A program made the position numbers and the translations under genes. A stretch of DNA of 44,580 nucleotides from Bacteroidaceae bacterium (GTDB lineage: Bacteria; Bacteroidota; Bacteroidia; Bacteroidales; Bacteroidaceae). The DNA lies in the NCBI GenBank assembly GCA_017552435.1, contig JAFZPZ010000083.1, positions 1 to 44,580 on the forward strand. Direction: 5' to 3'. Positions 254-39,966 of the stretch are shown one piece after another; the first letter of the stretch is position 1, and each line of letters begins with the position of its first letter. The notes beneath the pieces were generated by a model. That model was not told where the DNA came from and made no database searches. It was given only the letters and a program-made list of their open reading frames with translations.

Positions 254-3106
254 TTATTTAATCACAATCTTGTTTCCGTCCACGATGTTTATTCCTTTCT
301 GCAGCTTCTGGAGGCGCTGTCCGGCGAGGTTATAAACGACACCAGCTTCATTCTTCATTCTTAATTCTTCATTCTTAATTTCATTGATGCCGGTGGACGC
401 TTCCTCGAGCTTGTAGTAGGACCGCTTTTCGGCAGAAGGCAGGTAGCAGCTAAACGGAGGCAGGATGACGTCGGCTGTGGCACGGTAGATGTTGGTACCG
501 GTAGCCCTCATATAATAACCCTCGCCAGCTGCAAGCGTCTTGCCCGGATAGGTGCCGGCAAGAAGATTGACAAGACCCTCTAAATCTCCCTTAAAGGGAG
601 ACTTTTTATTCTTCCCCTTTAAGGGAGAGTTAGAGAGGGTCTGCTTGTCTTCTGCTTTCAGCGTGATGGTGGCTCTTGCCGGGCCATGAATGAGGACAGG
701 CGTTCCGTAGGGAACATACTCGCCGGCCTGGGCAATGGGTTTCAGCATGACAGACGAGGAAACAATCTCTGAGACGATGTAGGCTGTACAGCCCTCTGGA
801 ACCTGGTAGATATAGGGCAGGCAGACAGCGGCATAGCCGTTGGAGCCAAACGTATAGGTTCTTTCCTGTGTCTCGAGAATGCCCGCCAATCCCTGAATTT
901 CGTTCTGGCTGAGTGACCTTCCATAGATTCGCACCATTGCTATGTCGCCTATGAATGGATAGCCGCCTACCGACGACGTCTGTTCGTAGGTCCCCGATGC
1001 ATCACCGCCTATGGCGAGCCAAGTCGAGGGCGTCCATTCGTAAACGGGGCACTCCTTGAAGGTCAGCCAGCGGGTATCAACCAGTTCGCCATTGATGTAG
1101 AACTGCGAGCGGTAGTTCTTACGGTCATAGACGATGACATAGTGGGTATAGTCGGTGGTGAGACTGCCTGCGCCGACCCATGTCCACTGCGTCTTGGAAG
1201 ATGAGCCGTCCGCCTTGTTGCCCTGCGTGGTGGTGGTGTAGCCGATGTTGCCCTTGTTGTTCATCTGCAAGCCGAAGCCATAGCCGTTGACGAAGCCGAG
1301 CGGACGGGTGCTGAAAGAAGGCAGGGCATCGCTGTTCCGGCAGAAGACCTCGACGCTGTAGGCATCCGAGAGCTGGTTCATGATGCCAGGGTCGTCGCCT
1401 ATGGCGTATTTGAAGTACTGTGACTTACTGCCACTGAACTGCGACTCGAAGAGGTTGATGGCGGGATTGTAGTTCACCGGCACCTCGTCCATCATGACAA
1501 TGGGTTTGTCGACAAAGGACGGAGCATGGTTAACTGCGCCGTCGGGCGTGAACTCACAGTCCATGATGAGCTCTGTCCCATACGCCGTCTGCGGCTCCGT
1601 GAACCGCTTGACATCGTCGTTATAGAGCTTGAGGGCTGCTTTCTGCGAGAAAGCGCCATTGTAGATTCGTGCAAAAACGAAGCTGCAGGCCGTCGAGTTC
1701 TCTGCCCCGCTATTGTATGTACTCGAGGTTGCATCACCGCCCAGACAGATCCACATGCCCTTGCGTCCCTTGACAGAGCCACATTGAGGCATCACCATGT
1801 CAGTACCGGCGCGGGTGCCTGTGCAGACGAGTTTACCATTGATGAAGTACCGCATGATATGACTCGTTCTGTCCATTGTCAGCACCAGATGATAGAACTT
1901 GCCGGCTACCAGGATGGAGTCGCCGGTGATGCTCTTCACCGTGCTCTTCACCCCGCTCTTGTTCCAATAGCAGAAACTGCTTGCCAGTTCCGAGTTGTAG
2001 AAAGCCCAACCGCCATTCTCTTCATTGCCTAGGAAACAGGCTCTGCCGATGCCGCCGCCCTGGTCGGCCAGAGCGTCCAGCCGCACCAGCATCTCCCACG
2101 TCACACTGTTGTTGAAGGCATCGACCAGAGGTGTGCCATCGTCGTAGGTTACATAGAAATAATCCGAGGAACGTGATTTTGTACAACCATAATAGGTGTC
2201 GTTGCGGGCATCATAGACGGTTGTGGCTGTGCCGTGCCTACCGATCTTGGGAGCGTCATAGGTACCCTGATTGACGATGCCGTCGGCTGTGAAACTGAGG
2301 TCCAAGAGGCGTTCTGCCTCTTCCACCTCGTTCGAGCGCTTCAGTGCCCTCGTAATGATTTTCTGAGAAACCAGGGCATTGCAGATATGACTAGCAAGTT
2401 GAGTGCCGCCGTATGCAGTGGGATGCAGGTAGTCGAAGGTTGAAGCTCCCCAGTTGCTGCTCCAAGGCACCGAGGTGCAATCAATGTAGTACTGGCCAAA
2501 CTGTTGGGCGATATACTTGATGCTGGCATTGGCATCGGCTTGCGACCAGCCCATCGCATTCACGTCGTTCACGCCATTACCCCTCGGAAAGATGCTCAGG
2601 CAAACGATACGAGCCTTTGGATACCATTTGGTCAGTTTGTACAAAAGCCGCTGATAGGCACCGCGGAAAGTGACGGAGTCGGTGAAGTTGGAGGTCCGGT
2701 ATGAACCTAAGGGCACCTTGGCCGTATTCCAGTCGTTTGTGCCGCCGGCAATGAAGATGAAGTCGGGCTTGCCGGCTCGTCCAAGCGCATTAACACGATG
2801 ATTGCTGAGGAAAGGTGCATTGCTGTTGAGCACATCGCATGCCACACGACTGCCGCTCCACGAGGCATTGGCAAGGAAGGTGAGACCCGAAAGGCGGCTA
2901 AGTTGCATCCACCAGGTGTCGCCCACCTGAAAGCCATAATTCTTCTCGCGGTCCTGAGTGTAATAGACAGCATAGCCCGCAGGCAGATAGTCGTAGTAGG
3001 TCGAAATGGAGTTGCCCAGCACAGCGAACGTTAAGCTGTCGGGATTCTGGGCTCTCAACAATGGACAAGCCAGTAAGATGATAATAATCAGTAATGCGCG
3101 TTTCAT
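254..3106 (-). CDS. secreted SGNH/GDSL hydrolase with two LamG-like domains and a C-terminal sorting-type tail
   Basis: A 950-aa protein with a signal peptide (about 1-20). Residues 24-245 are an SGNH hydrolase: block I GNS with nucleophile Ser33, block III GTND with Asn124, and DYLHP with Asp225 and His228. This fold usually gives an esterase or lipase; the substrate is unknown, but an acetylated glycan is plausible given the appended domains. Two concanavalin-like LamG modules follow (about 265-505 and 510-745), then a beta-rich stretch and a short tail ending in GQRLQKLQKGIN, like type IX sorting tails. Residues 822-845 are encoded by two facing palindromic repeats and 908-919 by a heptad array, so part of the C-terminal region is repeat-derived. 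The ATG overlaps the stop of the upstream peptidase gene (ATGA, 3103-3106), implying coupled translation and a shared role outside the cell. Confidence 0.82.
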   Translation of the reverse strand: MKRALLIIIILLACPLLRAQNPDSLTFAVLGNSISTYYDYLPAGYAVYYTQDREKNYGFQVGDTWWMQLSRLSGLTFLANASWSGSRVACDVLNSNAPFLSNHRVNALGRAGKPDFIFIAGGTNDWNTAKVPLGSYRTSNFTDSVTFRGAYQRLLYKLTKWYPKARIVCLSIFPRGNGVNDVNAMGWSQADANASIKYIAQQFGQYYIDCTSVPWSSNWGASTFDYLHPTAYGGTQLASHICNALVSQKIITRALKRSNEVEEAERLLDLSFTADGIVNQGTYDAPKIGRHGTATTVYDARNDTYYGCTKSRSSDYFYVTYDDGTPLVDAFNNSVTWEMLVRLDALADQGGGIGRACFLGNEENGGWAFYNSELASSFCYWNKSGVKSTVKSITGDSILVAGKFYHLVLTMDRTSHIMRYFINGKLVCTGTRAGTDMVMPQCGSVKGRKGMWICLGGDATSSTYNSGAENSTACSFVFARIYNGAFSQKAALKLYNDDVKRFTEPQTAYGTELIMDCEFTPDGAVNHAPSFVDKPIVMMDEVPVNYNPAINLFESQFSGSKSQYFKYAIGDDPGIMNQLSDAYSVEVFCRNSDALPSFSTRPLGFVNGYGFGLQMNNKGNIGYTTTTQGNKADGSSSKTQWTWVGAGSLTTDYTHYVIVYDRKNYRSQFYINGELVDTRWLTFKECPVYEWTPSTWLAIGGDASGTYEQTSSVGGYPFIGDIAMVRIYGRSLSQNEIQGLAGILETQERTYTFGSNGYAAVCLPYIYQVPEGCTAYIVSEIVSSSVMLKPIAQAGEYVPYGTPVLIHGPARATITLKAEDKQTLSNSPLKGKNKKSPFKGDLEGLVNLLAGTYPGKTLAAGEGYYMRATGTNIYRATADVILPPFSCYLPSAEKRSYYKLEEASTGINEIKNEELRMKNEAGVVYNLAGQRLQKLQKGINIVDGNKIVIK
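350..384. repeat. heptad tandem array in coding sequence
   Basis: Five 7-nt units in A-B-A-B order: ATTCTTC, ATTCTTA, ATTCTTC, ATTCTTA, ATTTCAT. The 21-nt (three-unit) periodicity encodes KNEELRMKNE near the C terminus of the SGNH hydrolase. An identical 35-nt array sits at 3196-3230 in the neighbouring peptidase gene. Confidence 0.85.
574..642. repeat. two facing copies of the short palindromic element inside a gene
   Basis: Copy 574-601 reads GACCCTCTAAA then palindrome CTCCCTTAAAGGGAG on the plus strand. Copy 611-642 is in the opposite orientation. Together they form a larger inverted repeat. In the minus-strand SGNH hydrolase frame they encode SNSPLKG and SPFKGDLEG with no frame break. 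Confidence 0.85.
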
Positions 3107-6100
3107 TTGAGAATCTTTTTGCCATTAAAGATATTTATACCCTTTTGCAATTTGTTCAGACGCTGACCAAGGAGGTTATAGATGGCACCATCCTCATTCT
3201 TCATTCTTAATTCTTCATTCTTAATTTCATCAATTCCCGTAGGCGTGAGGGGCTCAATGGTGACACCTTCCAGTTTGAAGGCATTGATGCCGAAGCTGGC
3301 CTGACCGGTCAGGTTGACGATGATACCCAGCGAGACTTCTGTCTCCTCTTCGAGGGTGAAGCTGATGCTGCCCTCCGCGAGCTTGCACCAGGCGATTGCC
3401 TTCTCCTCGCACTCCGCATCGCTTACCATCGTGCTGCCCGCACATGCCACGAGGCGGCTGGTCTGCATGTCATCGACGTCGCCAGGCGTGATGCTGAAAC
3501 GGTACCTGCCGGCGGGAAGGGTGACTGCCTGCCAGAGACGATAGTCGAGCAGAGGCGTGGCAAAGCCGCTCCACTGCGTCTCGAACTGGATGTCGCTGTG
3601 GTGGCTGGTGTCGATGTGTGCACCGGTGGTGACATTCCCCTTGACGATGGCATTGGCATCCTGCCACTTGGAGCGACTGGTCTTCATCGCCAGCTTCAGG
3701 AAACGGCTGCTGTTGGCGGGATTGACCGTACCAGAGGCCGTGATATAGGGGTTCTTGTAGTTGGTGAGGAACGTGGCAGAGATATCGCCATGCATCAGAG
3801 CGCCGGTGTCGATGGTGAAGACGCCCAGAGCCGAGTTCCAGGCATCGCCGTCAGGACCGAAGCCGATACGCTGGGCATTGCTGCCGCCAGAGGTGCGGTC
3901 CTGCACGTCGCCGCCGTTCTGGTTGAAGTCATAATAGAGCAACAGGTTGCCTGATGCCTGTGCCTCGGCGACATCGGAGATGTGCTGGTTGCAACGAGCC
4001 AGGATCTCGTCGGCTGTAAGCGCAGCACCCCAAAGCCGCACCTCGTCTATCTGTCCCTTGAAGCCCTCGCCCATAGTGATACTCTGCAGGGCAGGCACAC
4101 GCGTGGCGAGCCTGGAGGATGAGGTGCTGAAGGGCTGCCCGTCGCGGAAGAAACGGACGACACCTGTGCCGTAGGTCACAGCATAGTGGTGCCATTCGCC
4201 CGTAATGATGAAGCCCTCGTCGGACTGGGCCGTCTTGCTGCCCAAGGTGATGCTGAGCATACCCTTGCTATCCACCGACGTGGAGAGGCTGCCCTGAGCG
4301 GAAGTGAGGCTTACGCTGCTCTGGTACTGCTGGGGTCGCATCCACCAGTCGAGGGTGAGGAACTTCTGCTCCTCCGTGAAGGGACAGGGTATCTGCAATG
4401 TCTCGACGCCTGTGAAATTGAGGCAGGAAACGGGGTCGTCGTTGCTGACAATGAGGTAGCGGTTGCGGGTCATGGAATTCTCGCCCAGCTGGTTGGCGAC
4501 AGACAGGCTGACATCATAGACGCCAGGCGCGGTAGGCACGACGTAGGGCGACTGCTCGGCAATCGTCAGGGCTCGGCAACCGTTGTTGAGCTCCCATTGC
4601 CAGGAGAGCGGACTATATCTGCTCTCGTCGATGAGCTGGACACCCTCTCCCAGCATGATAGCCGTCTCGGAGAGATCGAAGCGGGCATCCGGAGCCGACT
4701 CGCGCACCGTCACCTCGTGGGTAACGCTGCTGGAACCATAGGGGTTGGTGACGGTGAGGGTTACGGGGAAGGTTCCCGTGGTGGGATAGAGCGCCGTAGC
4801 ATTGGTGCCATGCAGCTCCTCGACCTCGGCTCCCGGCAGGTTCCACAGATAGGTACACCCTGCGCCCTCGCTACGATTGATGAAACTGAAACGGTCTCCA
4901 GCCGGCAGATCTGCATCCATCACATCGAAGGCCGCTACAGGAGCCTCGCCCTCGGCAACGACAATCTCCTTCTCGGCAGAAAGCGTAGAGCCGTCGGCAT
5001 AGGTAACGGTACAGCTCACATTGTATGTTCCAGCCTCCGGGAAAGTAAAGGTGGGAGACATCCCATTGAACATTAACCATTGACCATTGACCATTTCTCC
5101 CCCTAAAGGGGGCTGGGGGGTCTGGGTCATCCACTTCCACTCAGTTGCGGTGAGTTGGGTCTGCGCTATGAGGCGGAATGGGATGCCTGCCAGATGGGGC
5201 GTCTCCTCCTCCTGGATGGTAAGCGTAGGTGTGGGCTGTGAGCTGGAGAATGGGCCGTCGCCCTCCTCCACCTGCCAGGTGCCTATTGTCTGGAACCGGG
5301 CATGCTTGCCGCTGACGTATTCGCGCAGCCTGGTCTCGCCCTCCACCTGGATGGTTTCCATCGGCACATAGACCATCAGGTCGGGCTGCAACGCAGGCGC
5401 GGCAATACGGACACGCATGTTGTTACGGATCTCGGCCTGCGTCCGGGCAGTCCGCCAGACGCGTATCTCATCCAGACCGCCTATCCACCACTGGTTGACG
5501 TCGGAAGTCCGTCCGAACGGGAGGTCACCGAAGGCAACCAGGCCCGAATAGGACTTGGAGGTAATCGACCCCTTCTTGCTGCCGTTGACATAGAGCGTAA
5601 GGGTGCTGCCGTTTATCACGATGGCGATATGATTCCACTTTTTGGTGGTGGTGAAGACGCCGGAGACGTCCAGACGGTCCGAACCGCTGCTGTCCCACCC
5701 TACGGAAAGCGTACCGTTGCTGCTGTTATGGAAGAGGAACTTGCCCCAGCCAGGTCCCACCTGGTGTGTGTAGCTGACATTCTTGTCGTTGCGCATCCAG
5801 AACTCGATGGTAGCCTGTCCCAGCATCTCGGAAACGGCACCCGGGATGGTGATACAGCTCTCGTTCAGCAGTGTCCAGTGGTTTGTTCCCTGTGGGGGAA
5901 TCTGCAGCACGACAGGGTTGGACGAAGCCGACTCCTGTCTGTACTGGCCTGCCTGATATACCGCCCTGACGGTAAAGGTGCCCGTGGCGTCGAGAGCAGG
6001 CGCGTAATAAGTCTGTTTTTCAGGTAACTGGGCCACGAGTCTTGTATCCTCGTAAACATGATAGCCCGTAAGGGTAAGGCTGGAAGCCTGCGGAGCCGAC

Positions 6101-7626
6101 CAAACCAGCACGCCGTCTTCCACACCGAGGTTGGTGGGAGGATAGAGCTGCTCTCCCGGCACAACAACGGTGATAATGGTTTCCTTGCCATTGTTCTTAA
6201 TCTCCACATCCGACTGGTCGAAAGGAATCTCCACACCCTCGTTCTCGACCTCGTAATTGATAATGGAGGCTTTGTAGATATGTCCGCTACCGATGGCACC
6301 CGACTTGGTCTTGACGATGAAGAAGTACTTCAGGGGCTTCGTGCGGTCCACAGAGAAAGTGAGGTCGGTGAGGTCGTATCCGAACTCCATGGGCTCGTAG
6401 TGCATGCCATCCACCCAACGGCCCAGCATGGGAACCTCGGGAGCCGGATTGGCGCCCTTAGTATTGCCTGCATAGCGGAAATGCTCGAAGGGAATGGTCT
6501 TCTCCGGTTTGGTGGCATTCAGGTTCTGGGCGATGCCGCCAGAGAGCAAGAGTTCGCTGCGGTGTGAGTAATCCATCAGCAGCTTGATGGTGCGCAAAGG
6601 ACGGTAATCCTGACGTATGACGTATGCGCTGGGTGTCCACGTCCAGGTGTCGTTGTTCACAGCAAAGCTGTGCTTATAAGGGCAATAGATGAAGCCCTTG
6701 TTCTCCCATCCGTCGCCCCAGGAATTGGCAATAATCCAGGCACCGACCTCGTCCTCATCGACCTCTCCGATTTTACCGTCGCCATCGAGGTCGAACTCTA
6801 TGCGGTCGTCGTAGCCGCAGACAGTAAGGGCATGATTGAAGGTTTCACCCCAAGCCTGGACATACTTCATACCCACCACGCCGGCTGCCTTATTAGCTGC
6901 AGAAGAAGGGATAGCCTTCCATGTGCCATAGGCTGCCACACCGATACCGGCCACACCGCCTCCGTGCATGGTGTCGTCGCCACTATGGTTATAGAGCCAT
7001 TCCTTGAGTTCCTGACGGCCCTCGGGGGTGTTGGTGGGAGCCAGGCTGAAATCGTAGGCCGTACGGTTCCACATGGCGCTGTACCACTTGTCGTAGCCCT
7101 GCATCCAACCGTAGTCGGGGTCGTCATGCGTCTGTGCGCCAAAGAGTCTGCTGTAGGTCCGGCCTCCGTATGTGGGAACATTGGGAATGCCATTCCCTTT
7201 CGCCATTCCCTCTGTCGTACTGGTCTGATATGCCATTAGCCAGGTGAAGTGGGAAGGATACTGGTTCTCGGGCAGAGAAGCATCGGCGTCGCGATAGCTG
7301 TTTATCTCGTGCGTGAACTGATAGCCAATGGCAGCAGCCGAGCCACAGGAACCGCCATCCTGGTTGAAGATGGGAGGGAAATACTTGTCCTGCCCGTTAT
7401 AGACATAGGGCGGCAACTGCTCCTGAGCCTTTGCCTTGCGTGCCTTGCGGCGTGCCACATAGTCGGCGGGCTGGGCCTTGGGCGTTACATCATACTTGAG
7501 GTCGGGAAAGACACTGCGGTCTATCTTCACCACCTTGCCGTCGGGCAACGTATAATCCTCAATCTGGGCTATACTATTTAGGGATGGCATCAGGAAAGCC
7601 ATCAAAAGCAAACTCCTTGTCTTCAT
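3103..7626 (-). CDS. secreted papain-like (C1-type) cysteine peptidase with Fn3, LamG and PKD domains
   Basis: A 1507-aa protein with a signal peptide (about 1-20). The peptidase domain (about 75-330) has the papain set: Gln89 and Cys94 in NQDGGSCGS, His265 in NHALTVCGY and Asn301 in ANSWGDGW. Between His and Asn lies a calcium-loop sequence DLDGDGKIGEVD (279-290). Then come a fibronectin-III-like module (about 494-576), LamG (583-745), three PKD-like modules (about 798-1062), a second LamG (1068-1225), an unrecognised region and a KGINI tail like type IX cargo. PKD module 1 is interrupted at about 835-855 by a composite repeat, and residues 1466-1477 come from a heptad array. It is the first gene of a coupled pair with the SGNH hydrolase (ATGA overlap). 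The likely role is extracellular or surface degradation of protein or glycoprotein; the actual substrate cannot be read from the sequence. Confidence 0.82.
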   Translation of the reverse strand: MKTRSLLLMAFLMPSLNSIAQIEDYTLPDGKVVKIDRSVFPDLKYDVTPKAQPADYVARRKARKAKAQEQLPPYVYNGQDKYFPPIFNQDGGSCGSAAAIGYQFTHEINSYRDADASLPENQYPSHFTWLMAYQTSTTEGMAKGNGIPNVPTYGGRTYSRLFGAQTHDDPDYGWMQGYDKWYSAMWNRTAYDFSLAPTNTPEGRQELKEWLYNHSGDDTMHGGGVAGIGVAAYGTWKAIPSSAANKAAGVVGMKYVQAWGETFNHALTVCGYDDRIEFDLDGDGKIGEVDEDEVGAWIIANSWGDGWENKGFIYCPYKHSFAVNNDTWTWTPSAYVIRQDYRPLRTIKLLMDYSHRSELLLSGGIAQNLNATKPEKTIPFEHFRYAGNTKGANPAPEVPMLGRWVDGMHYEPMEFGYDLTDLTFSVDRTKPLKYFFIVKTKSGAIGSGHIYKASIINYEVENEGVEIPFDQSDVEIKNNGKETIITVVVPGEQLYPPTNLGVEDGVLVWSAPQASSLTLTGYHVYEDTRLVAQLPEKQTYYAPALDATGTFTVRAVYQAGQYRQESASSNPVVLQIPPQGTNHWTLLNESCITIPGAVSEMLGQATIEFWMRNDKNVSYTHQVGPGWGKFLFHNSSNGTLSVGWDSSGSDRLDVSGVFTTTKKWNHIAIVINGSTLTLYVNGSKKGSITSKSYSGLVAFGDLPFGRTSDVNQWWIGGLDEIRVWRTARTQAEIRNNMRVRIAAPALQPDLMVYVPMETIQVEGETRLREYVSGKHARFQTIGTWQVEEGDGPFSSSQPTPTLTIQEEETPHLAGIPFRLIAQTQLTATEWKWMTQTPQPPLGGEMVNGQWLMFNGMSPTFTFPEAGTYNVSCTVTYADGSTLSAEKEIVVAEGEAPVAAFDVMDADLPAGDRFSFINRSEGAGCTYLWNLPGAEVEELHGTNATALYPTTGTFPVTLTVTNPYGSSSVTHEVTVRESAPDARFDLSETAIMLGEGVQLIDESRYSPLSWQWELNNGCRALTIAEQSPYVVPTAPGVYDVSLSVANQLGENSMTRNRYLIVSNDDPVSCLNFTGVETLQIPCPFTEEQKFLTLDWWMRPQQYQSSVSLTSAQGSLSTSVDSKGMLSITLGSKTAQSDEGFIITGEWHHYAVTYGTGVVRFFRDGQPFSTSSSRLATRVPALQSITMGEGFKGQIDEVRLWGAALTADEILARCNQHISDVAEAQASGNLLLYYDFNQNGGDVQDRTSGGSNAQRIGFGPDGDAWNSALGVFTIDTGALMHGDISATFLTNYKNPYITASGTVNPANSSRFLKLAMKTSRSKWQDANAIVKGNVTTGAHIDTSHHSDIQFETQWSGFATPLLDYRLWQAVTLPAGRYRFSITPGDVDDMQTSRLVACAGSTMVSDAECEEKAIAWCKLAEGSISFTLEEETEVSLGIIVNLTGQASFGINAFKLEGVTIEPLTPTGIDEIKNEELRMKNEDGAIYNLLGQRLNKLQKGINIFNGKKILK
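3196..3230. repeat. heptad tandem array in coding sequence
   Basis: Five 7-nt units identical in sequence and order to 350-384, located just before the KGINI tail of the peptidase. The upstream and downstream coding sequences of the two genes also match locally, so this array may have spread with the tail module by recombination. Confidence 0.85.
5063..5123 (-). repeat. composite repeat: palindromic element plus heptad array, inside a PKD module
   Basis: 5063-5097 is a heptad array (CCATTGA, ACATTAA, CCATTGA, CCATTGA, CCATTTC). It is followed directly by the palindromic element CTCCCCCTAAAGGGGG with a flank reading GACCCCCCAGC on the minus strand. The same composite occurs in the opposite orientation at 39899-39966 at the end of trpE. 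In this gene it encodes QTPQPPLGGEMVNGQ and following residues. Confidence 0.85.
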
Positions 7627-7639
7627 AATTAATACATAT

Positions 7640-26233: not shown

Positions 26234-27241
26234 TTACTTGTCTTTTTGGAAGTTATAAGCCAGCGAGAAGGTCAGGGATGGTGCGCTGACGTGATATTTA
26301 GCATAGGCAATGCCGAACTTCAAACGCTTCAGGTTGACACCACCACCGAACGAGAGGCCGGCTGCATGCGATGAGCCTGCAGCATTCATCTCATAGGCGC
26401 GACGGAAGTTGAAGCCCAATGCGATATAGAACTTGTCGGAGGGAAGGAACTCTGCCCCAAGCACGAAATGATTCATGAAGATACTGCCTCCTTTGATGGT
26501 ATTGCCGGTAGTGAAATAGTCGTTCGAGGTCCAACGGGTCAGGTCAACCATCGAAACTGAGATACGGATAGGTGCATGACCCAGCGACTTTGTGAAACCT
26601 ACTTCAAGGTCTGCCGGCAATCGGTCGTGTGTATCGCCGAAGCTCTTCACCTGTCCGCCAAGGTTGCGCGCCGCAATCGAGAAAGAGAAGTCCGACTCTT
26701 CGTTGAAATAGTTTAGTCCCAGGTCTGCCGCCAGACCGCACGACGTATAGGGGCCGTAGTGCGAATAAATGAACTTGGCCGTAGCACCGCCTGCCCATCG
26801 TTCACTCAAGATATGACTGTACTGGCCGCCCAGGCAAAAGTCAAGAGGGCTGAACTCTCCGACAATCTCGCCCGACACCAGCGTCTCCTTTGTCTTGCCA
26901 TACCCTACGAAGTGTGCATAAGCGCCCCATGTGCCGTGTGCACCCACTTGCTGCGAATAAGCTGCAGCACCGGTGTTGCAGCCCTGCATATAGTTCATAT
27001 AGGAGAGTCCTACCGTCTTGTCACTGACATTTATCAGCAAGGCGGGATTTTGCATCGCCATCGAAATATCATCCTCGACCAAAGAGATATTCTTGCCGCC
27101 AAGTGCTGAAGAGTGGGCAGAGACTGGCAGGTTCAGAAAATTAAACACACTGCCGCTTTCCTGTGCTGAGATATGGAGCAAGGAGCAAGGAGTAAGGAGC
27201 AGAATGAGGAAAGAACGTCGTATTTTCGTCATTACATTCAT
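26234..27241 (-). CDS. porQ: type IX secretion system protein PorQ
   Basis: A protein of up to 335 aa with a signal peptide and an outer-membrane-like beta pattern. The N-terminal SVFNFLNLPVSAHSSALGG, then NPALL and repeated aromatic strands (SFSIAARNLGGQ, FGIAYAKYH), are characteristic of PorQ. PorQ is part of the type IX secretion and surface-attachment machinery, working with PorU, PorV and PorZ at the outer membrane. The start could be ATG 27241 or ATG 27232 (residue 4). A TAACTTTG box lies only about 11 nt before the first, so the second is a fair alternative. Its presence fits the sorting-type tails on the five large proteins at 0.25-20.5 kb. Confidence 0.85.
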   Translation of the reverse strand: MNVMTKIRRSFLILLLTPCSLLHISAQESGSVFNFLNLPVSAHSSALGGKNISLVEDDISMAMQNPALLINVSDKTVGLSYMNYMQGCNTGAAAYSQQVGAHGTWGAYAHFVGYGKTKETLVSGEIVGEFSPLDFCLGGQYSHILSERWAGGATAKFIYSHYGPYTSCGLAADLGLNYFNEESDFSFSIAARNLGGQVKSFGDTHDRLPADLEVGFTKSLGHAPIRISVSMVDLTRWTSNDYFTTGNTIKGGSIFMNHFVLGAEFLPSDKFYIALGFNFRRAYEMNAAGSSHAAGLSFGGGVNLKRLKFGIAYAKYHVSAPSLTFSLAYNFQKDK

Positions 27242-28187: not shown

Positions 28188-28241
28188 AACTTCTTTAACT
28201 TCTCTAACTCCTATAACTTCTTTAACTCCTATAATATATAT
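28188..28241. repeat. 9-nt period tandem array before the polyprenyl synthase gene
   Basis: Six 9-nt units in mixed order: AACTTCTTT, AACTTCTCT, AACTCCTAT, AACTTCTTT, AACTCCTAT, AATATATAT. It ends right at the ATG at 28245 and forms the leader of the gene. Same class as the 7-nt and 8-nt arrays elsewhere in the window. Confidence 0.8.
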
Positions 28242-31116: not shown

Positions 31117-31124
31117 GAATTTTA

Positions 31125-31201
31125 GGATTAAGGATTAAGGATTAAAGATTAAAGATCTGTTCTTTAACTTTTTAACTCTTTAACTTTTTAACTCTTAATT
31201 T
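31125..31201. repeat. facing 7-nt and 8-nt tandem arrays between exbB and the next gene
   Basis: 31125-31155 is GGATTAA three times, then AGATTAA. After a 6-nt gap, 31162-31201 is CTTTAACT and TTTTAACT alternating, then CTTAATTT, with an 8-nt period. TTAAAG and CTTTAA in the two halves can pair around the GATCTGTT spacer. It fills most of the 100-nt gap. Confidence 0.8.
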
Positions 31202-33244: not shown

Positions 33245-33356
33245 AAATCAGAACGCATTTCAGAGGGCCAACTTCATTTTCGTTGAAACATGTTGGTCTG
33301 TCTTGCTGTATCTTGTGATGCATGACATGTGCTTTTTCAATTTTTCTGCTTAAAAC

Positions 33357-33388: not shown

Positions 33389-33508
33389 CTATCCTGATAG
33401 TGCAAAATTCCAGCAGCTACAACGACTCCGGTTGGGACGACTGGTAAACTCATTGGCAGGATGGCTCGATAAATGGATGATGTTGCACTCAATTATAAAA
33501 CTATAAAT

Positions 33509-34882
33509 ATGAAAAAGCAACTGCTTTGGCTTTGGCTCGCAGCCGCTATCCTTATGGCCAGCCCCCTGCTGCTGACCTCGTGTGCGAGCGACGACAACCC
33601 AGTTGTCGCCCCCGAGTATGCCACGCTGAAAGAGGCGCTGCAGGGTATTGACCGCATCTCGGATATCAAGGAGAATCCAGACACGGCAGCCATTAGGAAG
33701 AAGACGGAGGGAGTGCTGGATTACAAGGAACAGTACAGCATGTTCTTCCGCCAGAACCTGAACCACAACGTGCAGGGCGGCGAGACGTTCGAACAGCGCG
33801 TGTGCATCCTGTTCCGAGGCTTCGACCGTCCCACTATCCTCGTCACGGAGGGATATTACTGGGATGAATTCAAGGATGGAGGCGACCTGGGCATCAACCT
33901 GAATGCCAATATGGTTCACGTAGAACACCGCAACTACGGGGAGTCCTGCAATCAAGACCAGGGCCAGTGGCAATATCAGACCATCGCCCAGGCATCGGCC
34001 GACCTCCATGCCGTCTATCAGGCGCTGAAGCCCATTTTCAAAGGCAAATGGATGAGTGCAGGCACCAGCAAGAGCGGTGAGACATCCATCGGCTATGCCT
34101 ATTGCTATCCGCTGGACATGGATCTGGCCGCTGCCTTCTGCTCGCCCTTCGTCATTGGCCAGAATGACGAGCGTTTCGGCTATTATGTCTTCAACGAGTC
34201 GGGTGCCGCTGAGGAGCGCGAATGGATGAAGACCGGTATTCGTAAAGCCCTGAAGGATGGTGAAGAAGGATTATACAAGGCGGTCTGCGAACAAATGAAA
34301 ACAGAAGGTCAAAGGGTTCCCGTCTATACGGAATATGTCTTCAATCTGTTTGACACCTTCTTTCAGGTGTTCCAGAGTACCCCACAGAATGACGGGCGAC
34401 CGGAGAAACTGGAGGAGATGGCCACCAATGACGAAACACTGGTGACGGAGGTCAGCAATACCATCGGGGACAACAGGGATGAAACCATCTATCCCTTCTT
34501 CGTGGAATCGGCTAAGGAAATGGGCTGGCAGGACAATGGCTACGACTATTTCGCCGACCTGCTCGAGGGCACCAGCTTCAACCGCGACGAAGTGCTGTCC
34601 TCTATCCTGAAACCGGAAGACCGCTGGGTGATTCCGATCTACGACAGCAGCACCTACACCGGCATCGTCAACAACTTCTTGATGACCAGTACCACGCCCC
34701 TGCTGCTCTACTATGTAAACGACGACCCATGGAGCGCCGGCATGCCGAAGCAGGTAGGCCCCAACGTCAAGTTGGTCGTCAACCCCATAGGTCGGCACAG
34801 TCCCTACCTGAACGACCCCAAGCTCTGTCCTGCGGAAACCAAACAGGAAGTGATGAATTTCGTCAGTACCTATATCTATTAA
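33509..34882 (+). CDS. S37-like (PS-10 type) serine peptidase lipoprotein
   Basis: A 457-aa lipoprotein: basic start, hydrophobic stretch and lipobox LLTSC with Cys25. The alpha/beta-hydrolase-like fold resembles family S37 tripeptidyl aminopeptidases and prolyl peptidases. MVHVEHRNYGES, then nucleophile Ser187 in AGTSKSGETS, Asp405 or Asp406 in YVNDDPW and His430 in GRHSPY. It is probably an envelope aminopeptidase that trims oligopeptides. The open frame starts at 33473, but its first 12 residues precede the basic start of the signal sequence, so the ATG at 33509 is chosen. It converges on the minus-strand tRNA cluster with a shared terminator. Confidence 0.82.
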   Translation: MKKQLLWLWLAAAILMASPLLLTSCASDDNPVVAPEYATLKEALQGIDRISDIKENPDTAAIRKKTEGVLDYKEQYSMFFRQNLNHNVQGGETFEQRVCILFRGFDRPTILVTEGYYWDEFKDGGDLGINLNANMVHVEHRNYGESCNQDQGQWQYQTIAQASADLHAVYQALKPIFKGKWMSAGTSKSGETSIGYAYCYPLDMDLAAAFCSPFVIGQNDERFGYYVFNESGAAEEREWMKTGIRKALKDGEEGLYKAVCEQMKTEGQRVPVYTEYVFNLFDTFFQVFQSTPQNDGRPEKLEEMATNDETLVTEVSNTIGDNRDETIYPFFVESAKEMGWQDNGYDYFADLLEGTSFNRDEVLSSILKPEDRWVIPIYDSSTYTGIVNNFLMTSTTPLLLYYVNDDPWSAGMPKQVGPNVKLVVNPIGRHSPYLNDPKLCPAETKQEVMNFVSTYIY

Positions 34883-34901
34883 GAAGGGATTATGAGAGAA
34901 A

Positions 34902-34937
34902 AAAAGAGGAACCGACATTGCTGTCAGTTCCTCTTTT
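34902..34937. terminator. bidirectional terminator between the peptidase gene and tRNA cluster
   Basis: AAAAGAGGAAC (34902-34912) pairs with GTTCCTCTTTT (34927-34937), with an inner GAC/GTC stem. T tracts exist on both strands: TTTT on the plus strand and a run complementary to the A-rich 34898-34905 on the minus strand. It can serve both convergent transcripts. Confidence 0.82.
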
Positions 34938-34940
34938 CTA

Positions 34941-35024
34941 TGGTGCCCAGAACAGGAATCGAACCTGCACGCCTCGCGGCACGCGCACCTGAAACGCGCG
35001 CGTCTACCATTCCGCCACCTGGGC
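34941..35024 (-). tRNA. tRNA-Leu (anticodon CAG)
   Basis: An 84-nt type II tRNA including encoded CCA (34941-34943). Acceptor GCCCAGG with TTCTGGGC, D arm GGCGGAATGGTAGACGC, anticodon loop TTCAGGT, a long variable arm GTGCCGCGAGGCGTG, and T arm with TTCGATT. Last of a three-tRNA cluster read on the minus strand. Confidence 0.95.
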
Positions 35025-35065
35025 AAAAAACGAGACTCGATGCGTAAGGCACCTTGAGCCTCGTT

Positions 35066-35141
35066 TGGAGCGGAAAACGAGACTCGAACTCGCGACCCCA
35101 ACCTTGGCAAGGTTGTGCTCTACCAACTGAGCTATTTCCGC
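35066..35141 (-). tRNA. tRNA-Gly (anticodon GCC)
   Basis: A 76-nt tRNA with encoded CCA (35066-35068). Acceptor GCGGAAA with TTTCCGC, D arm AGCTCAGTTGGTAGAGC, anticodon loop TTGCCAA, and T loop TTCGAGT. Middle gene of the cluster. Confidence 0.96.
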
Positions 35142-35152
35142 CTGACATTGTG

Positions 35153-35234
35153 TGAAGAGGAGGAGACTCGAACTCCCACGCCTCGCGGCACTACCACCTC
35201 AAAGTAGCGCGTCTACCAATTCCGCCACCTCTCC
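35153..35234 (-). tRNA. tRNA-Leu (anticodon GAG)
   Basis: An 82-nt type II tRNA without encoded CCA. Acceptor GGAGAGG with CCTCTTC (one G-U), anticodon loop TTGAGGT, variable arm TGCCGCGAGGCGTG nearly identical to that of the downstream tRNA-Leu(CAG), suggesting duplication. First gene of the cluster. Confidence 0.94.
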
Positions 35235-35395
35235 AAACGAATGTTTTTTCAGTAAATTCAGTGCCTTTTCAGGGGCTCCGTCAGTGCCATTCCTCCGAAT
35301 TGGCCTTGCAAGGACAGCGCAAACCGAACACAAAAGAGCTTGCTTTTTGTTGAGGTGCAGCCTGTTCTCGCAGCGCAATTTTGTTTTTTGCGCTG

Positions 35396-35426
35396 CAAAT
35401 GTACAGCTTTTTTTGAAACCAGCAAA
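35396..35426 (-). promoter_or_regulatory. promoter of the tRNA cluster
   Basis: On the minus strand, TTTG (35426-35423), a 19-nt spacer and TACATTTG (35403-35396), about 160 nt before the first tRNA. It is divergent from the promoter of the flavodoxin-like gene. The 357-base gap 35235-35591 holds these two promoters, one palindromic element and a short heptad array, and no gene. Confidence 0.75.
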
Positions 35427-35476
35427 ACTTTCTTGCACTTTTTTACTCCATTACCGGAAAATTTAACAGCAAAAGC

Positions 35477-35508
35477 CTTGCGAGACCTTATTTTTTGTAG
35501 TACCTTTG
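35477..35508 (+). promoter_or_regulatory. promoter of the flavodoxin-like lipoprotein gene
   Basis: CTTG (35477-35480), a 20-nt spacer and TACCTTTG (35501-35508). The ATG is at 35592. Confidence 0.65.
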
Positions 35509-35540
35509 CCACGCGAATACAAGGAAGAATTAAAAATCAG

Positions 35541-35586
35541 GACCCCCTAACCCCTAGGGGGAATCAGTGAAAAATTAAGAATTAAG
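35541..35586 (+). repeat. palindromic element followed by a short heptad array
   Basis: 35541-35561 reads GACCCCCTAACCCCTAGGGGG (flank plus CCCCTAGGGG palindrome). 35573-35586 is AATTAAG twice, 5 nt before the ATG at 35592. Same composite order (palindrome then heptads) as at 39899-39966. Confidence 0.75.
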
Positions 35587-35591
35587 ATAAT

Positions 35592-36425
35592 ATGAAAACT
35601 TTAGCATTGACTTTGGGACTGGCAGCAGCCGCGATGATGGTTGCTTCATGCAGTCCGGCGCCGAAAGAGCAGAAAGCTCTGGTGATTTACTACTCGCAGA
35701 CTTCGAACACAGAAACGGTGGCCCAAGAAATCGCCTCCCGACTGAATGCAGACATCGAGGAAATTGTGTCTGCAGAACCCTACGACGGGGATTTCCAAGC
35801 TACAATCGAGCGCTGCATGAAGGAACGCGAACAGGGTATCACCCCCGACATCCTGCCCATCACAGCCGACCTCGCGAAATACGACGTCATCTTCCTGGGC
35901 TATCCCATCTGGTTCGGAACTTACGCCCCGCCAATGAAGGCATTTCTGAGTCAGGTGGATCTGAGCGGCAAGAAAGTGGTGCCCTTCTGTACCTTCGGTA
36001 GCGGCGGACTGGAATCCAGCATAAAAGACCTGGCCGAAGCGCAGCCCAATGCCGAGATTCTGCCCGGCTATGGTGTTCGTGCAGCACGCATGGATGCCGT
36101 TTGCGACGAGGTGGACCGTTTCCTGAAAGCTGGCGGCTTCATCGAGGGTGAGTATGTTCAGTCCGAGGAATTCCCCGAACAGCACGAAGTTAGCGAGGAG
36201 GAAGCCGAGATTTTCAATGCTGCTGTGGGCGACTATCCGATGATGCACGCCCAGGCCAAGACAGTTGCCGCACGCGAGGTTCCCGATGGCACCGAGTATC
36301 TCTTCACGGCTGTCGATTTGCCCCGCGAGGAAGGTTCCAAGATGCCCCCTGCTGGCGAAATGAGGGTCTATGTCCTGGTGAAAAACGGCGAAGAACCCGT
36401 ATTCACAAGAGTGGTGAGAAATTAA
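35592..36425 (+). CDS. flavodoxin-like lipoprotein
   Basis: A 277-aa protein with a lipobox VASC (Cys20). Residues 29-170 form a flavodoxin fold: the FMN phosphate loop YYSQTSNTET (33-42), a YDVIFLGYPIWFGTYAPPMKAFL segment and FCTFGSGGLESS. The family includes exported flavodoxins and flavin-dependent reductases of the envelope; the electron donor is unknown. A C-terminal domain of about 90 residues (from EEFPEQHEVSEEEAE onward) is extra and I do not recognise it. The gene has its own promoter and is followed by facing heptad arrays. Confidence 0.82.
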   Translation: MKTLALTLGLAAAAMMVASCSPAPKEQKALVIYYSQTSNTETVAQEIASRLNADIEEIVSAEPYDGDFQATIERCMKEREQGITPDILPITADLAKYDVIFLGYPIWFGTYAPPMKAFLSQVDLSGKKVVPFCTFGSGGLESSIKDLAEAQPNAEILPGYGVRAARMDAVCDEVDRFLKAGGFIEGEYVQSEEFPEQHEVSEEEAEIFNAAVGDYPMMHAQAKTVAAREVPDGTEYLFTAVDLPREEGSKMPPAGEMRVYVLVKNGEEPVFTRVVRN

Positions 36426-36427
36426 AG

Positions 36428-36503
36428 GACAACAGACAACTGACTTCCGCCTGCATCCATGAAAGGGAAAAAGACAGTTGTCAATAGTCTATAGTCTGTA
36501 GTC
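36428..36503. repeat. facing inverted heptad arrays
   Basis: Left array 36428-36448: GACAACA, GACAACT, GACTTCC. Right array 36473-36503: GACAGTT, GTCAATA, GTCTATA, GTCTGTA, GTC, which reads on the minus strand as GACTACA, GACTATA, GACTATT, GACAACT. The two are related inverted copies around a 24-nt spacer. It lies between the flavodoxin-like gene and the SIMPL gene, whose ATG is 25 nt further on. Confidence 0.8.
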
Positions 36504-36528
36504 AAAAAAAAACTTAAAATATTAAAAT

Positions 36529-37248
36529 ATGAAAGACCATTTTAAATATGTGGGTGAGGCGCTGATTCTCGCCATTGGGCTCTTCCTGGCTGGAGGTGCC
36601 ATCAGAAACGGTATTGTGCAGTTCAAGGAAATGGACCGCACCGTGACAGCTAAAGGACTTTCGGAGAAAGAGGTGAAGGCAGACAAGGTGACTTGGCCCC
36701 TGAAGTTCAAAGAACTGGGCAACGACCCTGCCGAACTCTACGAAACCATCGCAAATGACACACGTATCATCGTGGACTTCCTGAAAGCAAACGGCATTAG
36801 CGACGAGGAAATCACGCAGACACCGCCACAAATGGTTGACCAACAGGCTAATATGAGCTATAGCAGCGAGACTGTTCGCTACCGCTACAAAGCAAATTGC
36901 GTAGTGACCGTCGTGAGCAAGAACGTGGATCTCGTGCGCAAGCTCGTCACCAAACAGGCTGATCTGATGCGACAAGGCGTCACTATCATCGGCAACGAGT
37001 ACGATGACAATGGAGACGTGAGCTACGAATTCACCGGTCTCAACACCATCAAGCCCGAGATGATTGCTGAAGCTACAAAGAATGCCCGCAAGACTGCAGA
37101 ACGCTTCGCTGAGGACTCTGACAGCAAGCTGGGCAAGATTCGCACAGCCGACCAAGGTCAGTTCAGCATCGAAAACCGCGACCAGAACACGCCCTGGCTG
37201 AAAAATGTGCGCGTTGTTACCACCGTGGTTTATTACCTGAAAGATTAA
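36529..37248 (+). CDS. SIMPL domain (DUF541) protein
   Basis: A 239-aa protein with one N-terminal membrane helix (about 9-25, [16 protein letters not shown]). The SIMPL domain is recognised by the start [24 protein letters not shown], then [15 protein letters not shown] and the C-terminal [16 protein letters not shown]. These are periplasmic or membrane-anchored proteins of unclear function. The stop is two bases from the trpB ATG, so it is almost certainly cotranscribed with the trp operon. That is an unusual partner with no known metabolic link. Confidence 0.85.
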
Positions 37249-37250
37249 AG

Positions 37251-38432
37251 ATGAATTCATATAAAGTAGGGCCGGATGGCTTTTACGGTCAGTTCGGCGG
37301 TGCCTACGTCCCGGAGATTCTCTACGGAACACTGGAGACGTTGCGCAACAGTTATCAGGATATCATAGACAGCGAGGAGTTTTTAGGGGAGTATTACCAG
37401 TTGCTGCGCGACTATGTGGGTCGTCCCAGCCCGCTCTATTATGCCCGTCGCATGAGCGAGAAATACGGCTGCCGACTCTACCTGAAGCGCGAAGACCTGA
37501 ACCACACAGGTGCTCACAAGATAAACAATGCCATCGGTCAAATCCTCTTGGCCCGCAGGATGGGCAAAAAGCGCATCATTGCCGAGACGGGAGCAGGGCA
37601 GCACGGAGTCGCAACTGCTACAGTCTGCGCCCTGATGGGAATGCCTTGCCGCGTCTATATGGGTGCTCTGGACGTTGAACGCCAGCACATCAATGTGGAA
37701 CGCATGAAGATGCTCGGAGCCGAGGTGTTCCCCGTTCAGAGTGGCAACAAGACCCTGAAAGATGCGACCAATGAAGCCATCCGCGACTGGTGCTGCCATC
37801 CGAGCGACACTTTCTACATCATAGGCAGTACAGTAGGGCCTCACCCCTACCCCGAAATGGTCGCAAAACTGCAGAGCGTCATCAGCAAGGAAATTAAGTT
37901 CCAGCTTCAGGAAAAGGAGGGTCGCGACTGGCCCGATTACCTCATCGCTTGTGTGGGTGGCGGCAGTAATGCGGCGGGCACCATCTACCATTACCTTGAT
38001 GACGAGCGCGTGAAGCTCGTTCTCAGCGAAGCAGGCGGGAAAGGTATGGATACAGATATGACGGCAGCATCGCTGAACATCGGGACAGTCGGCATCCTGC
38101 ACGGCAGCCGCATCAAAGTGATGCAGACAGACGACGGTCAAATCATCGAGCCTTACAGCATTAGCGCAGGCCTCGACTATCCCGGCACAGGTCCTATGCA
38201 CTGTAACCTCTTCGAGACAGGCCGTGCCAAAGTTTATGCAGTCAACGACGACGAGGCGCTGCAGGCAGCCTTCGAGCTGACGCGACTGGAGGGCATCATC
38301 CCGGCTTTGGAGAGCAGTCATGCTCTGGCTCTGCTGCCCAAATTGCAGTTCAAGCCCGAAGATGTTGTCGTGCTGACCGTCAGCGGAAGAGGAGATAAAG
38401 ACCTGGGAACCTATTTAGTTCATAGTTCATAA
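37251..38432 (+). CDS. trpB: tryptophan synthase beta subunit
   Basis: A 393-aa PLP enzyme that joins indole and serine. PLP lysine Lys90 in [27 protein letters not shown], the phosphate loop GGGSNAAG and SGRGDKD at the end. Standard length and single start. The stop codon and last residues (VHSS) are supplied by a heptad array (38417-38451). First enzyme gene of a complete trpBEGDCFA operon. Confidence 0.97.
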
Positions 38433-38522
38433 TTCATAGTGCATAGTTGGGCTACGCAAAGAGAAACGTTTTGAACTATAAACTAAAATAACTATGAACT
38501 CATAACTATGAACTATAAATAC
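38417..38522. repeat. facing inverted heptad arrays covering the trpB stop and trpE start
   Basis: Left 38417-38451: AGTTCAT, AGTTCAT, AATTCAT, AGTGCAT, AGTTGGG. Right 38472-38522: TGAACTA, TAAACTA, a 9-nt unit AAATAACTA, TGAACTC, ATAACTA, TGAACTA, TAAATAC. AGTTCATAGTT (38417-38427) is an exact complement of AACTATGAACT at both 38490-38500 and 38504-38514. The latter contains the trpE ATG (38508). Confidence 0.85.
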
Positions 38523-39965
38523 CATACTGCGAGCAAGAAGATACTGGGCGACCTGATTACGCCTGTCAGCGCTTATCTGAAGGTGCGCGATGCCTATCCG
38601 CAAAGCGCCCTGATGGAAAGTTCCGACTATCACGGCGGAGAGAATGCCAAGTCCTTCATCGCGCTTCACCCTATTGCAAGTGTGAGCATCGAGCACGGCA
38701 CAGGCATCTGCCGTTTCCCTGACGGCAAGGAGACTCGCCATGAAATCAGCGAGACCTACGATACCGCAAGGCTCATCAATGATTTCCTGAGTCACTTCGA
38801 CATCGAGGGGAACGACGTTCAGTATTGCGGTCTGTACGGCTACACGACGTTCAACGCTGTCCGCTACTTTGAAAACATTGCCGTCAAGGACGAGACGCAA
38901 CCCGAGAACGATGCGCCAGACATGCTCTACATATTATATAAAGATGTCGTCGTGTTCGACCATTTCTGCAATGAACTGACGCTTATCGAACTGCTTGCCG
39001 ACGGTGAAGAAGACGACCTCGACCAGCTGGAGCGCGACCTGGGCAGCCGCAACTACCAGACTTACGATTTCCATCCCGTCGGGGATTTCTGGAGCACCTT
39101 GACCGACGACGAGCACCGCAAGAACATCCGTCGCGGCATTGCCCATTGTCTGCGAGGAGATGTCTTCCAGATTGTACTGTCTCGCCGCTTCAAGCAACGC
39201 TACGAAGGCGATGACTTCAAGCTCTACCGCGCTCTGCGGAGTATCAACCCCAGCCCTTATCTTTTTTACTTCGACTTCGGAGGCTTCCGCATCTTCGGAT
39301 CTTCGCCCGAGACGCATTGCCGCATCGAGAACCGCCGCGCCTACATCGACCCCATTGCCGGCACAACGAAACGAACCGGCAACAGCGAGACCGACCGCAA
39401 GAATGCAGAATATCTGCGCAACGACCCAAAGGAGAATGCCGAACATGTCATGCTGGTCGATTTGGCCCGAAACGACCTTTCGCGCAACTGCCACGATGTC
39501 AAGGTCGATTTCTACAAAGACATGCAGTTCTATAGCCACGTAATCCATCTGGTGAGCCGCGTCAGCGGAGAACTGGACGAAGGCGCAGATCCCATCAAGG
39601 CATTTATCGACACGTTCCCGGCAGGCACTTTGTCGGGTGCTCCTAAAGTGCGCGCTATGCAACTCATCTCGGAATACGAACCGCATAATCGCGGTGCATA
39701 CGGCGGCTGCATCGGCTTTATAGGCTTCGAGGGCAACCTCAACCAGGCCATCACGATACGCACCTTCGTCAGCCGCAACAACGAACTTTGGTTCCAAGCG
39801 GGCGGCGGCATCGTAGCCAAGAGCGATGTGGAGTACGAACTCCAAGAAGTCAACAACAAGCTGGGCGCTTTGCGCAAAGCCATCGAAATAGCAGGAGGGA
39901 CCCCCTCTAACTCCCCCTTTAGGGGGAGAAACAATGGTCAATGTTCAATGGTCAATGTTCAATAA
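38508..39965 (+). CDS. trpE: anthranilate synthase component I
   Basis: A 485-aa chorismate-utilising enzyme that makes anthranilate with TrpG-supplied ammonia. A feedback-site-like LMESS (35-39) matches the LLES tryptophan-binding motif of TrpE. The catalytic domain contains DPIAGTTKRTGN, ENAEHVMLVDLARNDL and AGTLSGAPKVRAMQLI (about 372-387). The native fold seems to end near KAIEIAGG (about 464). The last 21 residues (TPSNSPFRGRNNGQ and following) are encoded by the composite repeat at 39899-39966, which also supplies the stop. The start codon is inside a heptad array and could be masked by pairing with the trpB end. Confidence 0.95.
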   Translation: MNYKYHTASKKILGDLITPVSAYLKVRDAYPQSALMESSDYHGGENAKSFIALHPIASVSIEHGTGICRFPDGKETRHEISETYDTARLINDFLSHFDIEGNDVQYCGLYGYTTFNAVRYFENIAVKDETQPENDAPDMLYILYKDVVVFDHFCNELTLIELLADGEEDDLDQLERDLGSRNYQTYDFHPVGDFWSTLTDDEHRKNIRRGIAHCLRGDVFQIVLSRRFKQRYEGDDFKLYRALRSINPSPYLFYFDFGGFRIFGSSPETHCRIENRRAYIDPIAGTTKRTGNSETDRKNAEYLRNDPKENAEHVMLVDLARNDLSRNCHDVKVDFYKDMQFYSHVIHLVSRVSGELDEGADPIKAFIDTFPAGTLSGAPKVRAMQLISEYEPHNRGAYGGCIGFIGFEGNLNQAITIRTFVSRNNELWFQAGGGIVAKSDVEYELQEVNNKLGALRKAIEIAGGTPSNSPFRGRNNGQCSMVNVQ

Positions 39966-39966
39966 A
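39899..39966 (+). repeat. composite repeat: palindromic element plus heptad array at the trpE-trpG junction
   Basis: 39899-39928 is GACCCCCTCTAA then palindrome CTCCCCCTTTAGGGGGAG. 39932-39966 is CAATGGT, CAATGTT, CAATGGT, CAATGTT, CAATAAA. It corresponds to the reverse complement of 5063-5123 in the papain-like gene. It encodes the TrpE tail and stop and ends 4 nt before the trpG ATG. Confidence 0.88.

Follow-up and report, generated by a model that had tools for sequence, protein, structure and literature searches.

Degenerate heptamer arrays in a Bacteroidaceae genome look like a small repeat element of unrecognised kind

We analysed a 44,580-nt stretch of a Bacteroidaceae genome (GenBank assembly GCA_017552435.1, contig JAFZPZ010000083.1, C109 in our numbering), hereafter the window, which carries short tandem arrays of degenerate 7-nt units at gene junctions and inside genes. 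Such arrays draw on a shared alphabet of related units, peak at one length, have a preferred end phase, are present in or absent from orthologous enzymes as in-frame inserts, keep a spacing to promoter boxes and, at one site, have switched units between relatives. This looks like a small repeat element of unrecognised kind. Our reading, tentative and a little short of an even chance, is that small non-autonomous inserts, either hairpins or solo arms, have been dispersed through the genome and that their units then turn over locally. The assembly comprises 3.50 Mb in 129 contigs (88% complete), and its nearest named TrpE sequences come from metagenome-assembled genomes (MAGs) of ruminant-gut Bacteroidaceae, Bacteroidales and Prevotellaceae, which suggests that the host is a Prevotella-related rumen bacterium.

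The genome was surveyed in a 1.24-Mb sample consisting of the window, 20 stretches (11 of them picked for holding one array type) and 60 stretches picked by contig number or length, the last forming a blind sample of 863 kb. The survey returned 173 arrays of period 7, against 27 of period 8, 20 of period 9, 17 of period 11, 3 of period 6 and 1 of period 10, and the strong 7-nt period that a first-pass annotation had proposed from the window thus holds genome-wide. The blind sample held 106 period-7 arrays, or 12.3 per 100 kb. Twenty first-order Markov copies of the window, searched at periods 4-15, gave no arrays except period 10 once, and five second-order Markov copies of 376 kb of the sample gave none. 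The excess at lag 7 expected from the window was likewise found in intergenic DNA of the blind sample, where this lag (0.289) was the highest among lags 2-22 that are not multiples of 3, with 0.2685, 0.283 and 0.270 at lags 5, 8 and 10.

Array length was concentrated at 29-34 nt, about 4.5 units, in 93 of the 173 arrays, and the same mode recurred elsewhere: 23 of 41 arrays from loci of the same genus fell in this range, as did 44 of 90 from named loci, the latter including orthologues of one another. Start phase was also preferred, with phase 0 in 76 of the 153 period-7 arrays assignable to the 4+3 unit family described below and 20 more unassignable. Both properties bear on pure in-place slippage, in which chance heptamer seeds expand and the 7 nt match a contact of DNA polymerase (a proposal of Mrazek et al. 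2007, as cited in PMC4679880 and PMC4692102). Slippage would account for the strong period-7 bias and, as discussed below, for turnover within arrays. We do not see how free slippage could be reconciled with lengths that peak at about 32 nt, with no fall-off from the detection threshold, or with a preferred start phase, and the inverted partners and the 6-nt promoter spacing described below stand against it too. As the sole cause it is possible, though unlikely; the length mode, the end phase, the in-frame inserts and the shared alphabet are not predicted by simple slippage in place.

The units themselves are held in common by unrelated loci, which is a further difficulty for slippage. When the period-7 arrays were reduced to one per 150 nt, the resulting 150 independent loci were covered by 40 heptamers, rotations and opposite strands being counted as one. 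Identical units were found in 467 pairs of loci, compared to 46.7 after letter permutation (standard deviation [sd] 6.5, maximum 69 of 500) and 11.9 expected from 7-mers drawn from the flanks. The alphabet is AT-rich and mutually related, with the general form RRTK+NNN, and the common heptamers fit a 4+3 form of AATT, AATG, AGTG, GATT or AACT followed by a triplet. The window arrays look mutually unlike because several unit families meet there, and the first-pass statement that unit sequences differ completely does not survive the wider sample. Nor do alternating variants form a rule: among 138 arrays with four full units, 12 were ABAB, 13 AABB and 7 ABBA. No single universal core motif was found; the 9-mers enriched near arrays consisted for the most part of the -7 box, the CCCCCTAAAGGGGG palindrome and AT-rich words.

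Sharing of whole arrays is a different matter. Thirty-one pairs of loci shared an impure 26-mer, compared to 20.8 when unit order was shuffled (sd 3.9, maximum 31 of 100), and none of the 31 had a common 12-mer in the 60-nt flanks. The arrays are therefore not descended from one master, as the first-pass annotation had also held; the alphabet is common to the loci and the composition of each array is largely redrawn. A fixed period and length, unit order mostly redrawn from a small alphabet and unshared flanks are what would be expected of a dedicated generator, such as a telomerase-like reverse transcriptase or other templated polymerase that writes arrays from few templates and fixes the period and the roughly 4.5 units. 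We consider such a generator distinctly improbable in view of the gene and RNA searches reported below.

Presence and absence of arrays can be scored most clearly inside genes. Although the arrays had been treated as intergenic, 67 of the 173 period-7 arrays lie within called open reading frames (ORFs) of at least 100 aa, calls that are mechanical and some of which will be wrong. Alignment of orthologues identified in-frame inserts in dihydroorotase, PurL, TrpE, TrpF (arrays present in several loci) and threonylcarbamoyladenylate synthase; gene names are from family models, and TrpF and the TrpE of locus L087 score below NCBIfam curated cut-offs. The host dihydroorotase has two inserts, neither of which is complete in any of the seven relatives that aligned (18 loci queried). 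One relative (L289) retains a short NEELR piece, and in L286 the second site is taken by another palindromic insert, of CCCCC type and related to the CCCCCTAACCCCCTTTAGGGGG palindrome. In PurL, where the region was present in 5 of 11 loci queried, the site is array-free in L154 and L156, filled in L025 by a pair of CATTGAC arrays and in L157 and L158 by an AATTCAT/AATTAAG-type pair, both pairs being palindromic. One loop of TrpE is occupied in L085, L087, L100 and L101, by a different array in each, and is empty in six others (10 of 11 loci queried).

Operon junctions behave in the same manner. The trpB-trpE and trpE-trpG junctions leave little room between the genes in many relatives and are array-filled in others, the fillers being arrays of differing units, 9-mers and palindromes. 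An ATTCTTA-type array in L158 occupies the site of AATGTTC in L157, L024 and L153, between flanks that are 94-96% (left) and 89-91% (right) identical, and the GC-rich palindrome beside it has also changed. Variation between near relatives, expected from the window, was found in unit number (at trpE-trpG, L026 has one unit more than L023) and in unit order (8-mer arrays of ATAACG at another junction are rotated between L024 and L153 at constant length); between distant relatives the arrays are not conserved. A 9-mer array also changes in concert between L067 and L077, as judged by eye, and this, together with the long trpB-trpE array at L171 9372-9455, is the kind of turnover and expansion within arrays that slippage would produce. 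Along the 12 units of the L171 array the sequence shifts from ACCATTT by way of GACATTT to CACATTT, a pattern that suggests stepwise mutation and amplification in place. The comparisons also bear on whether the arrays are assembly artefacts of a metagenome-assembled genome. The fragmentation and incompleteness of the assembly would favour this, whereas three separate genomes (L024, L153 and L157) carry the same array at a common junction and an in-frame TrpE array is present in Prevotella aff. ruminicola Tc2-24 (L087), the record of which has no MAG label in its title; we give the artefact almost no credence.

Some arrays face an inverted partner. We collected 42 palindromic elements, 18 from the host sample and the others from 36 loci of relatives, 16 of which had been fetched for matching one such element. 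In aligned copies, heptamer arms on the outside enclose an inner inverted repeat, which in turn encloses a loop peculiar to each copy; the inner repeat is of the AAAGTAAC/GTAACTCT type in most and of the TTTGCTRCCGC type in four. Homogenisation by template switching, or co-evolution of arms inside the hairpin, was considered and found unsupported, the arms of one element being no more alike than those of different elements belonging to the same family. As a separate observation, the CCCCCTAACCCCCTTTAGGGGG palindrome is dispersed in the genome (in the window at 5099, 35543 and 39913); its 14-nt core has 84 matches in the 1.24 Mb, both strands counted, of which 14 are close to an array.

Noncoding arrays are associated with promoters. 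An outward-facing TAnnTTTG box, which we take to be the Bacteroidetes -7 promoter consensus, was found within 40 nt of 40 of the 128 noncoding period-7/8 arrays, compared to 14.6 (sd 3.5) for intergenic positions drawn at random. At 23 ends of period-7 arrays the distance to the box is exactly 6 nt, and each of the 8 arrays flanked by a box on either side measures 31-34 nt. One 61-nt box-to-box stretch, ending in inverted -7 boxes, has more than 40 other matches in relatives among those listed, mostly at 79-93%. For a divergent promoter at a cytidine-deaminase gene (named by reading), all 15 orthologous sequences obtained were measured. The spacer between the boxes is 32 nt in 9 of the 11 array-free orthologues, 33 nt in one and 74 nt in one, and 43-45 nt in the host and three relatives with repetitive spacers, one of which (L266) is rich in purines and escaped the array detector. 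The box sequences differ between the two groups as well. The cassette may have been replaced as a whole, or the array may require such spacing.

These results raise the alternative that the arrays are selected regulatory elements, namely promoter spacers, UP-like elements or operon-junction stem-loops. The proximity to boxes, the 23 ends at 6 nt, the double-boxed arrays of uniform size and the longer spacers of the four repetitive cytidine-deaminase promoters all argue in its favour. Against it, 163 of 200 host period-7/8 arrays have no -7 box 3-9 nt from an end; the 6-nt peak is absent for host periods 8, 9 and 11 and also from two operon-rich sets, one of 75 arrays in trp loci of the genus and one of 125 arrays in named loci; relatives have the same promoter with no array; and selection of this kind would explain neither the arrays inside enzymes nor the unit alphabet. 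We think it quite improbable.

Insertion followed by slippage is our preferred reading because the alphabet, the size mode, the start phase, the in-frame presence and absence and the reuse of tolerated sites fit it best. The basic piece would be a solo arm of about 32 nt, made of 4 to 5 heptamers from a genome-specific alphabet of related AT-rich units, and a minority would be full hairpins of roughly 75-150 nt composed of an arm, a short inner inverted repeat, a variable loop and an inverted arm. Inserts would land widely and persist where the DNA is dispensable, that is, at operon junctions, between divergent -7 boxes and in frame in protein loops, and slips in the 7-nt register would later alter the order and number of units. 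We infer that ready-made arms and hairpins have spread by insertion through a trans-acting activity, slippage accounting for later variation only.

Several observations weigh against insertion. Arms within an element have a similarity of 0.724 (n = 35), compared to 0.786 between elements of the same family (n = 136), so copying of whole hairpins is not demonstrated. Most arrays have no inverted partner, the host sample containing 18 palindromes of periods 7-9 compared to 150 period-7 loci. Neither a target-site duplication nor an excision footprint was seen in the alignments by eye, no systematic search having been made. The sharing of whole arrays beyond the common alphabet is weak (the 31 pairs compared to 20.8 shuffled), and the insert-free PurL allele of L156 holds CATTGACCATT, which may be a seed, as slippage would have it, instead of a remnant. 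Finally, of the genes that we tested (Y1 transposase, RVT_1, mutS1 and SbcC), none tracks the arrays.

The search for a maker used a density pattern that detects one unit family only. Among 61 genomes of the genus its matches ranged from 0 (11 genomes) to 292 in the host (22 with the pattern reversed), and array density is patchy between congeneric genomes. Ten of the eleven "zero" genomes, sampled over 325 kb, contained 9 period-7 arrays (2.8 per 100 kb), 4 of them in G007; they are thus array-poor and not array-free, as expected of a pattern limited to one family. Most of the compared genomes are incomplete, so the absence of a gene from one of them is weak evidence; its absence from eight rich genomes is stronger.

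A Y1 (RAYT) transposase was rejected as the mover. PF01797 was matched in 22 of the 61 genomes, including the array-rich G027 among others, but not in the host (G000) nor in the array-rich G001, G005, G008, G016, G020, G045 and G047 (62-92% complete). The RVT_1 family was rejected too, with no match in the same seven genomes or in G027 (again 62-92% complete). Patchiness between congeneric genomes and the single RVT_1 protein of the host would suit a dedicated generator; RVT_1 is, however, commoner in pattern-free genomes (9 of 11) than in the others (11 of 50; Fisher p = 3e-4), an anti-correlation that could reflect lineage or real exclusion, and an Rfam scan, which limited the search for a template RNA to the window, found tRNAs only. 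The first-pass annotation had proposed templated slippage or a dedicated enzyme; a strong 7-nt process is borne out, and a dedicated enzyme may or may not be involved, neither family having been matched in many rich genomes.

Loss of mismatch repair does not serve as a general cause, mutS1 being over the cut-off in 54 of the 61 genomes, the host included. Of the seven others, four have fragments, and G045, G047 and G056 have a MutS2-like stretch only. G045 (86% complete) and G047 (80%) are array-rich genomes with no intact mutS1. Loss of SbcC was suggestive within the genus, where all 6 genomes with SbcC (E < 1e-30) have at most 10 pattern matches compared to 18 of 55 without it (p = 0.002), and unsupported across the order, where a net 10 or more matches over the reversed-pattern control were found in 5 of 82 genomes with SbcC and 19 of 165 without (247 genomes, p = 0.25). 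One exact AGTGAAG/AATGAAG array string was found in 14 viral-contig stretches (L344-L357), which are perhaps prophage flanks; the promoter-cassette string did not occur in the viral collection.

Heptamer repeats have been described elsewhere. Short tandemly repeated repetitive (STRR) heptamers of heterocystous cyanobacteria are 7-nt degenerate tandem repeats present at many loci, and our arrays are likened to them by description. With units repeated above chance and copy number and order varying between near relatives, the arrays belong to the class of heptamer simple-sequence repeats (long simple sequence repeat, LSSR, or STRR), and the cyanobacterial parallel drawn from the window was a fair one that extends to Xanthomonas. 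The GGGNATC repeats found in Xanthomonas and Nostoc (Rehm et al. 2015, PMC4692102) share the period, heterogeneous dispersed units, the four-unit preference and places that are kept while length and sequence vary. Inverted pairs, another likeness, are numerous in Xanthomonas, with 70 and 75 cases in the two examined, but few in Nostoc; in Xanthomonas 7-11% of the repeats are intragenic. Unlike that single G-rich unit, ours are many and AT-rich, and 67 of 173 arrays lie in ORFs. The four-unit preference of GGGNATC was linked to G-quadruplexes; four G3 or C3 tracts occur in 0 of our 173 arrays (any GGG or CCC in 12), so the preference here needs a non-quadruplex cause.

The TAACTGA repeats of Beggiatoaceae, cyanobacteria and Bacteroidetes (MacGregor 2015, PMC4679880) also consist of a heptamer in 2-6 tandem copies, lie at gene junctions and in some cases within reading frames, and are patchy across phyla. 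They differ in being a single heptamer, with related heptamers rarely repeated and one indirect repeat; the available part of that paper gives no mechanism and mentions neither hairpin elements nor promoter spacing. Rickettsia palindromic elements (Ogata et al. 2000, via the part available of the review PMC2229807), of about 105-146 bp, are inserted in frame into conserved proteins, as here in the five enzymes named above, and the one enzyme with such an element that was tested remained active. As far as those descriptions go, their arms are not tandem heptamers, whereas ours vary by family and solo arms predominate. BrickBuilt of Porphyromonas gingivalis, a miniature inverted-repeat transposable element (MITE), is likewise a Bacteroidales tandem repeat within an inverted-repeat element; according to the available part of PMC4596501, its unit is 23 nt, its 19 copies are always intergenic and it has bidirectional promoter activity. 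Repetitive extragenic palindromic (REP) elements with their RAYT transposases differ from our arrays, given that no Y1 match was found in the host and seven other array-rich genomes. Among the published titles and abstract starts searched, which mostly do not cover subscription literature, none dealt with AT-rich heptamer hairpins in Bacteroidales reading frames.

The 7-nt, four-to-five-unit rule extends to AT-rich units that lack the G tracts a quadruplex requires, and the origin of heptamer repeats becomes directly testable because the arrays score as clean presence or absence in essential enzymes and promoters of relatives. A bolder idea, to which we assign only a slim chance, is that a trans-acting system writes arrays of about 32 nt, also as paired hairpin-forming ones, de novo from few templates at many sites. 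If so, the repeats of Xanthomonas, Nostoc, Beggiatoaceae and Bacteroidales would be the work of one widespread unrecognised DNA-writing activity, and the accounts of heptamer repeats by G-quadruplexes and polymerase contact would be wrong. The arrays steadily supply rumen bacteria with new protein loops and promoter spacers, and annotators should be aware that peptides such as NEELRMKN or IDHSPLTIDHS may be repeat inserts.

The arrays of the window itself illustrate this range of settings. All those listed by the first-pass annotation exist, two of them (35573-35587 and 36428-36503) being weak, and at least three, at 346, 3194 and 5063, lie inside reading frames. On the minus strand, an AATTAAG/AATGAAG array (346-380) is read in frame close to the C-terminal end of a GDSL/laminin-G protein (..GINEIKNEELRMKNEAGVVYNLAG..), an array of the same type (3194-3226) sits at the matching place in the next large protein (..GIDEIKNEELRMKNEDGAIYNLLG..), and an in-frame AATGGTC array (5063-5097, ..EMVNGQWLMFNGM..) adjoins the GC-rich CCCCCTAAAGGGGG palindrome, our module M1, at 5099-5112; all three can be read with period 7 or 14. 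A GGAGCAA period-7 array (27175-27199, minus strand) near the N-terminus of a called ORF had been missed. On the plus strand, a period-9 (9/18) array at 28188-28241 covers residues about 10-27 at the 5' end of a polyprenyl synthetase ORF; it is probably a 5' leader, as relatives align only from residue 11-33. Two intergenic plus-strand arrays follow, GATTAAG/GATTAAA at 31124-31156 (period 7 or 14) and the period-8 (16) array TTTAACTT at 31161-31196.

At 35543-35587 (plus strand), the CCCCCTAACCCCTAGGGGG palindrome is followed by two AATTAAG units, the repeat part (35573-35587) amounting to 2.1 units. A weak inverted pair, GACAACA... / ...GTCTATA, occupies two short pieces between two genes at 36428-36503, of which the repeat finder reports 36480-36503 only (RNA fold z = -2.1; 5 of 200 shuffles equally good). 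The trpB-trpE junction contains a palindromic element at 38416-38515, with an AGTTCAT array (38416-38447, period 7 or 14), the core GGGCTACGCAAAGAG and an inverted AACTATG array (38488-38514), and as RNA it gives a good fold (z = -4.3; 0 of 200 shuffles equally good). At the trpE-trpG junction (39913-39966, plus strand), the CCCCCTTTAGGGGG palindrome and an AATGGTC/AATGTTC array (39932-39963, period 7 or 14) replace the last TrpE residues.

Two further repeat classes were noted in the genome. The 17 arrays with a degenerate 11-nt period, of the TTCTACTAAAG, CTCTAGGGTTC and AACCTAGCGGT types (L210 5884-6210, L216 175-225, L228 165-295, L232 8-201 and L201 11967-11997), include some facing pairs and some close to contig ends. 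Iteron-like 21-nt repeats, of the TATTTTCAARGYTTGGAAATA type by eye, are present in the host at L141 12215-12290, L142 17906-17987 and L148 1354-1423.

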